Source: Candidatus Peribacteria bacterium
Lineage (GTDB): Bacteria; Patescibacteriota; Gracilibacteria; UBA1369; 2-02-FULL-48-14
Reading direction: 5' to 3'
Assembly (NCBI GenBank): GCA_943349825.1
Contig: CALQZQ010000003.1
Location: forward strand, 124,001-188,000
Length of the DNA: 64,000 nucleotides
Shown piece by piece: positions 34,518 to 39,372 of this stretch; positions within the stretch are counted from its first letter, which is position 1, and the number at the start of each line of letters is the position of its first letter. Position numbers and translations under genes: made by a program. The notes beneath the pieces are model-generated. The model was given only the letters and a program-made list of their open reading frames with translations, was not told the DNA's origin and made no database searches.

Positions 34518-35213
34518 ATGAGCACGCTCCAGTGCCCAGCCAAAGTGAACTTGTTCCTGGCCATTCGTGGCAAGGATGCTTCTGGCTATCATGAAATCGA
34601 AACCGTTTTTGCGCGCGTCCCGGAACTTTTCGACGAAATCGAAATCGAGCCGGCTTCGGACTTTTCTTTTCACTGCGAATCTTTGCCCGGGCAAAGCAAC
34701 TCCGTAGTCCAAGCGCTCCGTCTCCTGGAAGCGCACACCGGCCGCACTTTCAACTACAAAATCACCCTCACCAAAAACATCCCCCCGCGCAGCGGACTGG
34801 GCGGCGCCTCCAGCGACGCGGCAGCTATTCTGATCTACTTGAACGAAACCGAAAAACTCGGCCTCACGCAGGATGAACTCCAAGCCCTCGGCGCCCAAAT
34901 CGGCATGGACGTACCTTTCTTCCTCAGTGGTCACGAAGTCGCTCTGGGCACCCACTACGGCGAAAAAATCACGCCCCTTCCCTCGCTCCCACCCAACGTA
35001 AAAATCTCCATCGAACTCACTGGCCACGAAATTTCCACGCCAGAGGCTTATGAGCGCTGGGATGAATTTCTCGCGCAGCATCCCGACCACACGGCCCCCA
35101 TGGACACAAGCCTCCTCTACAACGACTTCGAGCTCATCACTCCCGAGTGCGGCCCCTACTCCAAAACTCGTCACCTCTGCGGCAGCGGCGGGGCCACTTT
35201 TCATATAAGTTAG
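34518..35213 (+). CDS. ispE: 4-diphosphocytidyl-2-C-methyl-D-erythritol kinase, C-terminally short
   Basis: 231 residues; usual length is 270-300. The GHMP kinase start CPAKVNLFLAIRGKDASGYHEIETVF and the ATP loop NIPPRSGLGGASSDAAAILIYLN are intact. The region after LLYNDFE jumps quickly to CGSGGATFHIS, the third GHMP motif (usual form SGSG[AP]T), and stops there. About 40-50 residues are missing in two places, yet all three motifs remain. The enzyme phosphorylates CDP-ME using ATP. The gene is directly followed by the short RNA transcription unit at 35228. Confidence 0.93.
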   Translation: MSTLQCPAKVNLFLAIRGKDASGYHEIETVFARVPELFDEIEIEPASDFSFHCESLPGQSNSVVQALRLLEAHTGRTFNYKITLTKNIPPRSGLGGASSDAAAILIYLNETEKLGLTQDELQALGAQIGMDVPFFLSGHEVALGTHYGEKITPLPSLPPNVKISIELTGHEISTPEAYERWDEFLAQHPDHTAPMDTSLLYNDFELITPECGPYSKTRHLCGSGGATFHIS

Positions 35214-35227
35214 TTTTGCGCCGTTTT

Positions 35228-35256
35228 TTGAACAAGTTTTACGACTAGCCTATTTT
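35228..35256 (+). promoter_or_regulatory. Promoter of the tRNA-like transcription unit
   Basis: TTGAAC (35228-35233) and TATTTT (35251-35256) are 17 bases apart, 15 bases after the ispE stop. The transcript would start near 35263 and end at the terminator at 35450, about 190 nt. Confidence 0.5.
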
Positions 35257-35267
35257 TTGTCAGGAAA

Positions 35268-35336
35268 ATGTCAGCGAAACGTAAGAAAAAAGTAAGGTGT
35301 TTTGTAAGGTCGGGATGTTTGAATAGCTTTGTCTAG
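35268..35336 (+). CDS. Possible 22-codon basic peptide in the leader of the tRNA-like RNA
   Basis: ATG 35268 to TAG 35334-35336 encodes MSAKRKKKVRCFVRSGCLNS plus two residues. AGGA lies three bases before the ATG, too close for a standard ribosome site. The peptide is very basic at its N-terminus. The frame ends four bases before the cloverleaf RNA begins. It could be a leader peptide or chance; no family is recognised. Confidence 0.25.
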   Translation: MSAKRKKKVRCFVRSGCLNSFV

Positions 35337-35340
35337 TCAC

Positions 35341-35412
35341 GGGGGTACGCAGCGGTGCGCTGAATAGATCGTCAACTATTCGGGGCGGGTTCGACTCCCG
35401 CTACCTCCACCA
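35341..35412 (+). ncRNA. tRNA-like RNA with alanine acceptor identity
   Basis: A 72-nt cloverleaf can be drawn. The acceptor is GGGGGTA with TACCTCC, giving a G3:U70 wobble, discriminator A and encoded CCA: the complete alanine identity set, shared by tRNA-Ala and tmRNA. The T arm is canonical (GCGGG-TTCGACT-CCCGC). The D-like arm is CAGCG-GTG-CGCTG with only a 3-nt loop and no GG. The anticodon-like arm is AATAG-ATCGTCAA-CTATT, an 8-nt loop. It has its own promoter and terminator. It is not a normal tRNA-Ala, and lacks a tag reading frame of normal tmRNA. It could be a degenerate tRNA, a relic tmRNA end, or a new RNA. Confidence 0.6.
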
Positions 35413-35475
35413 CTAGACTTGCAACAAAAAGAGCCCAATGGGCTCTTTTTGCGTAGCTTCGCCGAATAGATCGTC
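35362..35475. repeat. 12-bp direct repeat in and after the tRNA-like RNA
   Basis: GAATAGATCGTC occurs at 35362-35373 (anticodon-like arm and loop) and again at 35464-35475, after the terminator. The spacing is 102 bases. Bases beyond the repeat do not match. Integrase attachment sites often use anticodon-loop sequence, so an old insertion or rearrangement is one explanation. Confidence 0.5.
35426..35450 (+). terminator. Rho-independent terminator of the tRNA-like RNA
   Basis: AAAAAGAGCCC, loop AAT, GGGCTCTTTTT: an 11-bp perfect stem with a T run, 14 bases after the CCA end. It can also act for the minus strand, where recR ends at 35513 further on. Confidence 0.85.
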
Positions 35476-35512
35476 TCTAAAATTATAAGCCCAGCACTCC
35501 ACATTGTCCACC

Positions 35513-36121
35513 TCACACCATCTTCTGCCTTCCTTCCATCGCACGAATGAGAGTGGCTGCGTCGGTGTATTCCAAGTGCCCACCGGACGGAATTCCCCGT
35601 GCGATGCGAGACACATGTACCGCGCTGAAGGTGCCCAGTTTTTTTTGAATGTAGAGCGCCGTGGTGTCCCCTTCCAAGTCGGGATTCAGCGCCAAAATAA
35701 CCTCGCGCACGGGGCCCTCTTCCATGAGTCGCGCAAACAATTCCGCCAGCTTTAGCTCGTCCGGCCCCACCCCATCCAGCGGCGAAAGTTTTCCTTGCAG
35801 CACATGATAGCGCCCGCGGTACTCGCCGGTCTTTTCAATTGCGATCAAATCCAGCGTGGACTCCAGCACGCACAAAACAGAAGCATCGCGCCTGCTGTCA
35901 TCACAAATCCTGCAGGGATCCGAAGTCGTCAGGGAAAAACACGTGGAACACTGTTGAACCCCCACGCGCACCTCCTTCACGGCAGCCCCTAACTTTTCCG
36001 TCATCGCCTCGGGACTCTTCAAAAGATGAAACGCCAAACGTTGAGCGCTTTTTGGTCCCACGCCGGGCAACTTGGCCAGCTCTTCCATCAATGTCTTCAG
36101 CGAATCCGGTAGGAAATCCAT
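35513..36121 (-). CDS. recR: Recombination protein RecR
   Basis: 202 residues, normal length. N-terminal helix-hairpin-helix LAKLPGVGPKSAQRLAFHLL, a four-Cys zinc finger C58-ST-C61 ... C70-RI-C73, then the Toprim domain with VCVLESTLDLIAIEKTGEYRGRYHVLQGKLSPLDGVGPDEL and ILALNPDLEGDTTALYI. RecR with RecO (and RecF) loads RecA on gapped DNA. ATG 36119-36121 is chosen as the family start; the frame runs on upstream without homology. A recA or recO gene is not in this window. Confidence 0.97.
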   Translation of the reverse strand: MDFLPDSLKTLMEELAKLPGVGPKSAQRLAFHLLKSPEAMTEKLGAAVKEVRVGVQQCSTCFSLTTSDPCRICDDSRRDASVLCVLESTLDLIAIEKTGEYRGRYHVLQGKLSPLDGVGPDELKLAELFARLMEEGPVREVILALNPDLEGDTTALYIQKKLGTFSAVHVSRIARGIPSGGHLEYTDAATLIRAMEGRQKMV

Positions 36122-38758: not shown

Positions 38759-38995
38759 ATGAATCCAATCATCACCAACAGGGAGCTCCTTCGCAACTAC
38801 AGAAAGCTTCGAATGAAGTTGGCCAGAGGCGAAGTCAAAAAAATCCTGATCAAACAAATGGATGGGATGGTCTTCAGATTCGAAATCGAAACGCCGGCTC
38901 AAACGGCTTTCGAACGAATGGTGGAGCACATCAAAAAACATCCCATCAAAGGTATAAAAAGACTCGAAGAAGATTTATTCGATGAAAGAAAATGA
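38759..38995 (+). CDS. Antitoxin-like protein, 78 aa
   Basis: A small basic protein, MNPIITNRELLRNYRKLRMKL and onward, with a helix-rich start, then a strand pair (KKILIKQMDGMVFRFEI). The start resembles Phd/YefM-type antitoxins (short N-terminal 'NxxELxxNY' segment), but identification is from position: it overlaps a PIN toxin gene by ATGA (38992-38995) and has a palindromic promoter. It would neutralise the toxin and repress the operon. Confidence 0.6.
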   Translation: MNPIITNRELLRNYRKLRMKLARGEVKKILIKQMDGMVFRFEIETPAQTAFERMVEHIKKHPIKGIKRLEEDLFDERK

Positions 38996-39372
38996 CTGAA
39001 GGCTACCTCCTAGACACGAACATTTTAATTTACTTCACAGAAGGAAATTTAAAGTTGATCGATTTCCTGGCCAAGCTCAAACAGGAAACTTTTTTTGCCA
39101 GTGTGATTTCCCACTTTGAGTTTTTAGATGGTCACAAGACGTCAAAACAGTTGAACGAAATGGAGAAAGCGATAGAAGGCTTTATTTTTTTGGACCTTCG
39201 TAGGGAAATAACAAAAGCAGCTGCTGAGCTGGACCTTAAAACGAAAAAGAAATTAAAGCTAAAGGACCTACTCATAGCAGCTACGGCAAGAGTAGAAAAC
39301 CTCACCATCGTTACTGCAGACAAAGACTTCAAAAAAGTTGAAGGAGTGGAAACGCTACTATTCAAACTCTAG
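38992..39372 (+). CDS. PIN-domain toxin, VapC-like
   Basis: 126 residues with the PIN RNase active-site acids: D8 in LLDTNILIY, E43 in ISHFEFLD, D92 in LKDLLIAATA, and D110/D112 in TADKDF. VapC toxins cut tRNA or rRNA in a Mg-dependent way. Length is normal. The pair is visibly richer in A and T than its neighbours, suggesting recent transfer. It is convergent with carB. Confidence 0.85.
   Translation: MTEGYLLDTNILIYFTEGNLKLIDFLAKLKQETFFASVISHFEFLDGHKTSKQLNEMEKAIEGFIFLDLRREITKAAAELDLKTKKKLKLKDLLIAATARVENLTIVTADKDFKKVEGVETLLFKL

Follow-up and report, generated by a model that had tools for sequence, protein, structure and literature searches.

Type VIII toxin-antitoxin systems, in which both partners are RNA, are represented by CreTA, where CreT is a messenger RNA (mRNA) that ties up a rare transfer RNA (tRNA) and CreA, which needs Cascade, represses a promoter (PMC12737573). 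In the type I system hok/Sok, antisense binding exploits Y-U-N-R loops, which are docking sites for rapid antisense RNA binding (PMC6562991). Among tRNAs themselves, unusual cloverleafs are known from allo-tRNAs and other non-canonical bacterial tRNAs, and tRNAs with reduced arms have been documented (PMC7609411), while G3:U70 on non-alanine tRNAs leads to alanine misincorporation (PMC8473984). We analysed a 64,000-nucleotide (nt) stretch of a Candidatus Peribacteria genome (assembly GCA_943349825.1, contig CALQZQ010000003.1, positions 124,001 to 188,000, forward strand; hereafter the window), in which a tRNA-like RNA, RNA A, stands beside the predicted gene of an antisense RNA matched to it, RNA B. 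The results point to a switch made wholly of RNA, and not described before, that may be a toxin with its antidote; in the open-access literature searched (subscription papers lay outside that search) we found no tRNA-like RNA described as having an antisense RNA gene of its own.

The locus resembles CreTA in that both components are predicted to be small RNAs from neighbouring genes and the effector would act on translation, but here the effector is itself tRNA-like, the partner is directly complementary to it, and any toxicity is putative. By analogy the module may work like a type VIII system, without being classed as a member. As in hok/Sok, a short antisense RNA ends in a terminator hairpin and would contact its target with the 5' end, at a U-turn loop of Y-U-N-R type; the two systems differ in that A and B carry matched segments instead of overlapping on opposite strands, and in that the target is not the mRNA of a toxic peptide. 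A type I target encodes a small toxic protein, whereas this one is a 69-74-nt tRNA-like RNA whose conserved features are structural. Transfer-messenger RNA (tmRNA, RF00023) has the same alanine acceptor end with G3:U70 and a T arm, but A has D and anticodon-like arms, lacks a tag reading frame and pseudoknots, and occurs beside a separate tmRNA. Some of the oddly folded allo-tRNAs and other non-canonical tRNAs carry G3:U70, as A does, and are charged with alanine, as A may be; A differs from them in a 7/5 rather than 8/4 or 9/3 acceptor branch, the absence of a variable arm and a private antisense gene. Mistranslating G3:U70 tRNAs likewise combine alanine identity with a non-alanine anticodon, but those are single mutations or engineered, whereas A belongs to a natural, multi-copy, antisense-matched family.

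RNA A and its family

RNA A is encoded between recR and an ispE-like GHMP-kinase gene (both assigned by domain matches). Its features in the window are as follows.

35341-35412, plus strand: RNA A, alanine-type miniature tRNA-like RNA of 72 nt, recognised from the sequence, ARAGORN, the family model and covariation in relatives
35359-35384, plus strand: anticodon-like arm of RNA A, from the predicted fold and family loop statistics
35331-35337, plus strand: leader strand of the outer (precursor) stem, GTCTAGT, pairing with 35412-35418
35412-35418, plus strand: trailer strand of the outer stem, ACTAGAC, which begins with A76, from outer-stem scoring across loci

The RNA (GGGGGTACGCAGCGGTGCGCTGAATAGATCGTCAACTATTCGGGGCGGGTTCGACTCCCGCTACCTCCACCA) consists of a 7-base-pair (bp) acceptor stem with G3:U70, a short D arm with GG, a long anticodon-like arm, a T arm and A73-CCA. 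An earlier sequence-only reading had described a 72-nt cloverleaf with alanine acceptor elements at this site, and G1:C72, G3:U70, A73 and the encoded CCA can all be read from the window copy. The D arm, which it had drawn as CAGCG-GTG-CGCTG, is better drawn as CGCA-GCGG-TGCG, which holds the GG of the D loop. Its eight-base loop holds for the window copy, where one A is added to ATCGTCA, and not for the family, whose loop has 7 nt. The CGT triplet that it had noticed after U33 is the anticodon-like CGU, in place of an alanine anticodon (NGC).

ARAGORN called the RNA tRNA-??? (cgtc), of unknown type with a four-base anticodon. The Rfam tmRNA model matched at 30.8 bits, under its gathering score of 47, and covered the acceptor and T arm with the inner part of the model unmatched; the confident tmRNA match that the sequence-only reading had named as contrary evidence was thus not found. 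The Rfam tRNA model gave 22.4 bits, under its cut-off, and the missing variable loop and long anticodon stem depart from the canonical tRNA-Ala cloverleaf. The second tmRNA and the tRNA-Ala genes that the same reading had asked for are present: a full, separate tmRNA lies at C3:97248-97699 of the host assembly (125.8 bits), with ordinary tRNA-Ala(UGC) and tRNA-Ala(GGC) genes. RNA A is an alanine-type tRNA-like RNA and, as the sequence-only reading had stated, neither a standard tRNA-Ala nor a tmRNA.

The family was first met as 70-73-nt matches in a tmRNA search of 39 relatives, and 14 of those matches, with the window copy left out, formed the seed of a covariance model. The seed alignment contained four helices with 94.3% of cells paired, G3:U70 in all 14 copies, and 82 double-change cells compared with 24.5 in shuffled alignments. 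Relatives of RNA A therefore keep the fold through compensatory changes, and the loss of stems that would have spoken against it was looked for without being found. Scored with this model, RNA A reached 53.5 bits (E 3e-9 for the genome, E-values of the model being rough), a match far beyond chance. The conservation of G3:U70 was partly favoured by the tmRNA-based seed, although a single pair cannot explain scores of 50-87 bits.

With the model we collected 78 copies of 69-74 nt from patescibacterial genomes, of Peribacteria type and others; a model built from the family itself may pass over weak or unlike members. The class-wide search found family matches in 44 genomes of the same order and family-length matches in seven genomes of another family outside the order (f31), and the phylum-wide sample gave matches in four genomes outside the class (f49). 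Named genomes of other phyla, used as outgroups, gave no family-length match, and plasmids and annotated phages no similar DNA. ARAGORN overlooks nearly all copies. The host genome carries five intact copies and one disrupted copy.

Comparison of the copies establishes the fold with its covariation, the alanine identity elements and the outer stem. All seven acceptor pairs are intact in 74/78 copies, and a 7-bp acceptor stem with a 5-bp T stem forms the branch in nearly all. G3:U70 is kept in 77/78 copies, A73 in 78/78 and an encoded CCA in 65/78. The D stem has 3-4 bp and a short loop with GG in 78/78, the T loop is almost invariant, and a variable loop is absent. The anticodon-like stem, of about 9 bp and in many copies with one base bulged out on its 3' side, closes a 7-nt loop of the form N-U-Y-R-N-C-A (U33 in 73/78, R35 in 69/78, C37 in 58/78 and A38 in 75/78). 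Truncated mitochondrial tRNAs have lengthened anticodon stems and lost connectors and may keep the L shape. The extra stem pairs of A would similarly replace missing connectors and preserve the length of the L; A differs from those tRNAs in its bacterial chromosomal location, its exclusive alanine identity and its antisense partner. Leader and trailer form an outer stem with a best-stem score of 6.6 compared with 3.4 for swapped partners (54 loci), and canonical tRNAs of the same group had a mean score of 3.0. The predicted readings of the 78 anticodons were Thr in 32, Ser in 22 and alanine in 2, with the register set by a rule that may have misplaced it by one in a few copies.

These data bear on the possibility that A is a tmRNA relic, which the sequence-only reading had considered in the form of a tmRNA 3' part, or an ordinary divergent tRNA. 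The sub-threshold tmRNA match of acceptor and T arm speaks for such an origin. It is contradicted by the separate tmRNA and ordinary tRNA-Ala genes, the many structured copies and the private antisense gene, and we give it almost no credence. The relic tmRNA was rejected: a full tmRNA coexists with a multi-copy family that has its own D and anticodon arms and also exists as a full-size tRNA form.

RNA B, the putative antisense partner

The antisense partner gene, absent from the sequence-only reading, changes the interpretation most. The segment GAATAGATCGTC of RNA A recurs at 35464-35475, and this repeat is the partner RNA, with the following features.

35426-35475, minus strand: RNA B, antisense partner of about 50 nt with a predicted +1 at 35475, reading GACGATCTATTCGGCG-AAGCTACGC-terminator
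35460-35475, minus strand: antisense segment of RNA B, 16 nt complementary to the loop and 5' stem of RNA A
35482-35510, minus strand: promoter of RNA B, TGGACA, 17 nt, TATAAT, with 11/12 matches, 6 nt before the antisense start
35426-35450, both strands: shared bidirectional intrinsic-terminator-like hairpin, inverted repeat AAAAAGAGCCC-AAT-GGGCTCTTTTT; same layout at 47 loci

The promoter that had been placed at 35228 has to be withdrawn: no sigma-70-like promoter was found there, and the only one that the promoter scan found in 35200-35540 is that of RNA B (minus strand, 35510-35482). The terminator that had been placed at 35450 survives in part, since the hairpin at 35426-35450 can terminate, on both strands; the inverted repeat is plain from the sequence, although the promoter scan did not flag it. 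RNA B would run into this hairpin, which RNA A would use from the opposite side. The duplex between the antisense segment and the arm of A is predicted at -20 kcal/mol. A single-pattern search for B in the window gave no match, as the pattern did not fit the sequence of the window copy.

Across the family, B-like antisense to the anticodon-like arm (scored as ungapped duplexes) reached threshold at 71/78 loci, compared with 1.4% when arms were swapped between genomes and 4/82 canonical tRNAs. These 71 loci carry what appear to be two RNA-gene-like units. The complementarity extends over 13-28 nt from the predicted +1 of a promoter against the anticodon-like loop and 5' stem, usually followed by a terminator. 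The units are convergent at 47 loci, tandem downstream at 12 and divergent upstream at 12, and in 57/71 a -10 box precedes the antisense start by 5-7 nt. The start of B pairs most often with loop position 36-38; in that register its G would pair with C37, offering a reason for an otherwise odd base.

In multi-copy genomes, the mean score of B was 15.4 (minimum 12.3) against its own A and 6.4 against other A's, so that cognate recognition is supported as predicted pairing. In neighbourhood-matched copies of sister species, arm and partner have both changed (for example L165/L171 and L162/L167). The promoter-antisense-terminator layout of B, its specificity and its coevolution with A as a gene pair are in this way established by comparison of the genomes. 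In the window the partner segment repeats the arm directly over a short length, and such a repeat could be read as the scar of a recombination or integration event at a tRNA-like gene rather than as a second gene. We consider a scar highly improbable: the partner occurs in direct, inverted-downstream and divergent-upstream arrangements, as a rule with a promoter at a constant distance, and the coevolution, the cognate specificity and the 1.4% null all argue against it.

The linker of B is enriched for complementarity to the D-arm strand of A (30/71 loci compared with 7% expected), a feature absent in the window copy. Predicted A:B complexes gained a median of 17 kcal/mol over the separate folds, compared with 1.8 for mismatched pairs, and the acceptor stem of A was lost in 70/71 of them. 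A pairing that is long, specific and conserved would also suit a single bipartite working RNA, a split tmRNA-like particle in which B is partner and not inhibitor, and candidate partners of the full-size form do carry several antisense segments. The predicted loss of the acceptor stem is at odds with such a particle, and by eye B consists of antisense, linker and terminator and shows nothing resembling a tag, although reading frames were not systematically tested. We regard the bipartite particle as very unlikely.

The full-size tRNA form shares G3:U70 and the loop type with the miniature one and mostly has a CCTGGTG leader, and its candidate partners carry more than one antisense segment. Full-size forms are probably a second class of A/B module, easily annotated as ordinary tRNAs. 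Examples were seen at G000:C4:51427-51504 and G000:C1:204253-204329 in the host genome and at L247, L251, L256, L208:2173-2247, L216, L135, L293 and L295. Their tRNA calls were one Thr, several Ser and two Asp, and most have G3:U70; they share the C37-A38 type of loop, with a longer candidate antisense RNA nearby.

Proposed action of the pair

We propose that the locus would be a two-gene, RNA-only module in which B is an antisense antagonist of an alanine-chargeable A, acting like an RNA/RNA toxin-antitoxin pair or a gated mistranslation switch, and on this we are about evenly divided. The acceptor end would mark A for alanylation, and as the loop is almost never of alanine type (mostly Thr or Ser, here CGU), A would insert alanine at wrong codons if it entered the ribosome. 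RNA B would be a dedicated antisense RNA of about 50-70 nt, recognising A in the manner of hok/Sok: its 5' end would meet the exposed U-turn loop and zip into the 5' anticodon strand, often also the 5' strand of the D arm, dismantling the tRNA fold and silencing A. Once B was lost or its synthesis stopped, A would act. We infer transcription, charging, ribosomal use, inhibition by B and toxicity from this architecture, and the toxin-antitoxin reading adds analogy to it. More tentatively, and short of even confidence, the pairs may form an RNA-only toxin-antitoxin class, with an alanine-charged, codon-rewriting mini-tRNA as toxin and a private antisense RNA that unfolds it, several orthogonal pairs per genome, and full-size and phage-borne versions.

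The assignment of roles follows from content. As B appears to hold only antisense, linker and terminator, its role would be to bind A, and as A keeps the features needed for charging and tRNA docking, A would be the effector. The precedents of G3:U70 misincorporation and of Y-U-N-R docking together suggest that A is a missense tRNA which carries alanine and which an antisense RNA neutralises. Several observations weigh against this proposal. A and B are predicted RNAs, known from genome sequence, and no promoter signal was found for A, with no -10 box enrichment upstream of its copies. The pyrimidine C37 would make A a poor decoder. Four A copies without a B found nearby, and a disrupted A with its B kept, indicate that the pair can decay without obvious harm.

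The same pair could be beneficial, with A as a regulated mistranslator that places alanine into Thr- and Ser-type codons under stress and B as its dimmer. The clustering of the anticodons on Thr and Ser codons and the mildness of alanine substitutions would fit, and other bacteria are known to mistranslate deliberately. The module does not hold to one codon target, however, the anticodon shifting from CGU to CGA between the sister copies L165 and L171, and we think this use unlikely. A might instead donate alanine to a non-ribosomal step (wall, lipid or peptide tailing) with B regulating supply, as alanine identity is the most conserved feature, the anticodon is not conserved and C37 would exclude A from decoding. 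This would leave the length of the anticodon arm and U33 unexplained, and no recurring aminoacyl-transferase neighbour was found among 329 clustered proteins, no genome-wide transferase search having been made. We judge a donor role decidedly unlikely; the aminoacyl transfer to the wall suggested by the sequence-only reading gained no positive support.

If antisense antagonism of a mistranslating A is correct, a regulatory or addiction system would consist of a tRNA-like RNA and an antisense RNA only, and its hosts are bacteria about whose biology hardly anything has been learned. Nature would thereby offer a case of codon rewriting that can be switched, and some of the 'tRNAs' that look odd in genome annotation or are missed by it would be effectors and not decoders. 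The many mutually specific natural pairs offer a ready experimental set for RNA-RNA recognition on the tRNA fold.

Mobility, neighbouring genes and host genome

The disrupted sixth copy of the host genome lies at G000:C4:75874-75974 (L166:1875-1975), where the T arm and 3' acceptor strand are split by inserted sequence and B is intact. In IMG/VR, most matches to a loose pattern were tRNAs of other kinds, shortened or ordinary, that lack B, and one was a real A/B pair; a stricter pattern gave no match. The real pair (contig IMGVR_UViG_3300044698_000441, L384:560-630 with flanks) is complete with promoter and terminator, on a contig that encodes a phage major tail protein and a head-morphogenesis protein, and a transposase gene of TnpB/OrfB appearance adjoins it. 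No convincing B was found near the other phage matches examined. The disrupted A with its retained B indicates that pairs are gained and lost. Many viral contigs of about 50 kb (L329, L335, L336, L345, L357, L368, L378, L387, L392, L393, L395, L397 and others) share another RNA of 70 nt, almost unchanged from contig to contig, which has G3:U70 and a GAU loop and which ARAGORN calls tRNA-Ile; no antisense partner was found near it.

A might draw off anticodon nucleases or phage factors, as a decoy or as a sacrificial target, with B tuning its level; a phage-borne pair, varied anticodons and several copies would suit this. Strict conservation of G3:U70 and A73 would be superfluous in a decoy, as would an antisense RNA matched to A alone and unfolding it, and we would be most surprised if this role proved correct; the decoy role raised by the sequence-only reading found no positive support.

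Among the 329 clustered neighbouring proteins, A has no consistent gene neighbour apart from a Cys-rich group: zinc-finger-like paralogues of about 550 amino acids, with marginal treble-clef zinc-finger matches only, lie beside or flank A copies in five genomes (L173, L188, L193, L205, L212, L213).

The host assembly measures 1.25 Mb and is 98.8% complete. By RecR, the named genome nearest to it belongs to Candidatus Peribacteria (72%) and is the same as the same-genus genome G001 (identical match coordinates). Ordinary tRNA-Thr(UGU), tRNA-Ser(UGA) and tRNA-Tyr were not found among the tRNA matches read out for the host, likely an assembly gap; a normal tRNA-Thr(UGU) pattern is present in most relatives, the same genus included. 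RNA A as an essential ACA/ACG decoder, or a reassigned code, was set aside, because relatives have tRNA-Thr(UGU) and an assembly gap is likelier.

Elsewhere in the window, at 38759-39372 near carB, a small gene and a PIN-domain (VapC-like) gene probably make up an ordinary toxin-antitoxin pair. A conserved GCTCTTTGAAAA lies directly 5' of the tmRNA start in many genomes of the order (L026, L030, L035, L037, L040, L044 and others).
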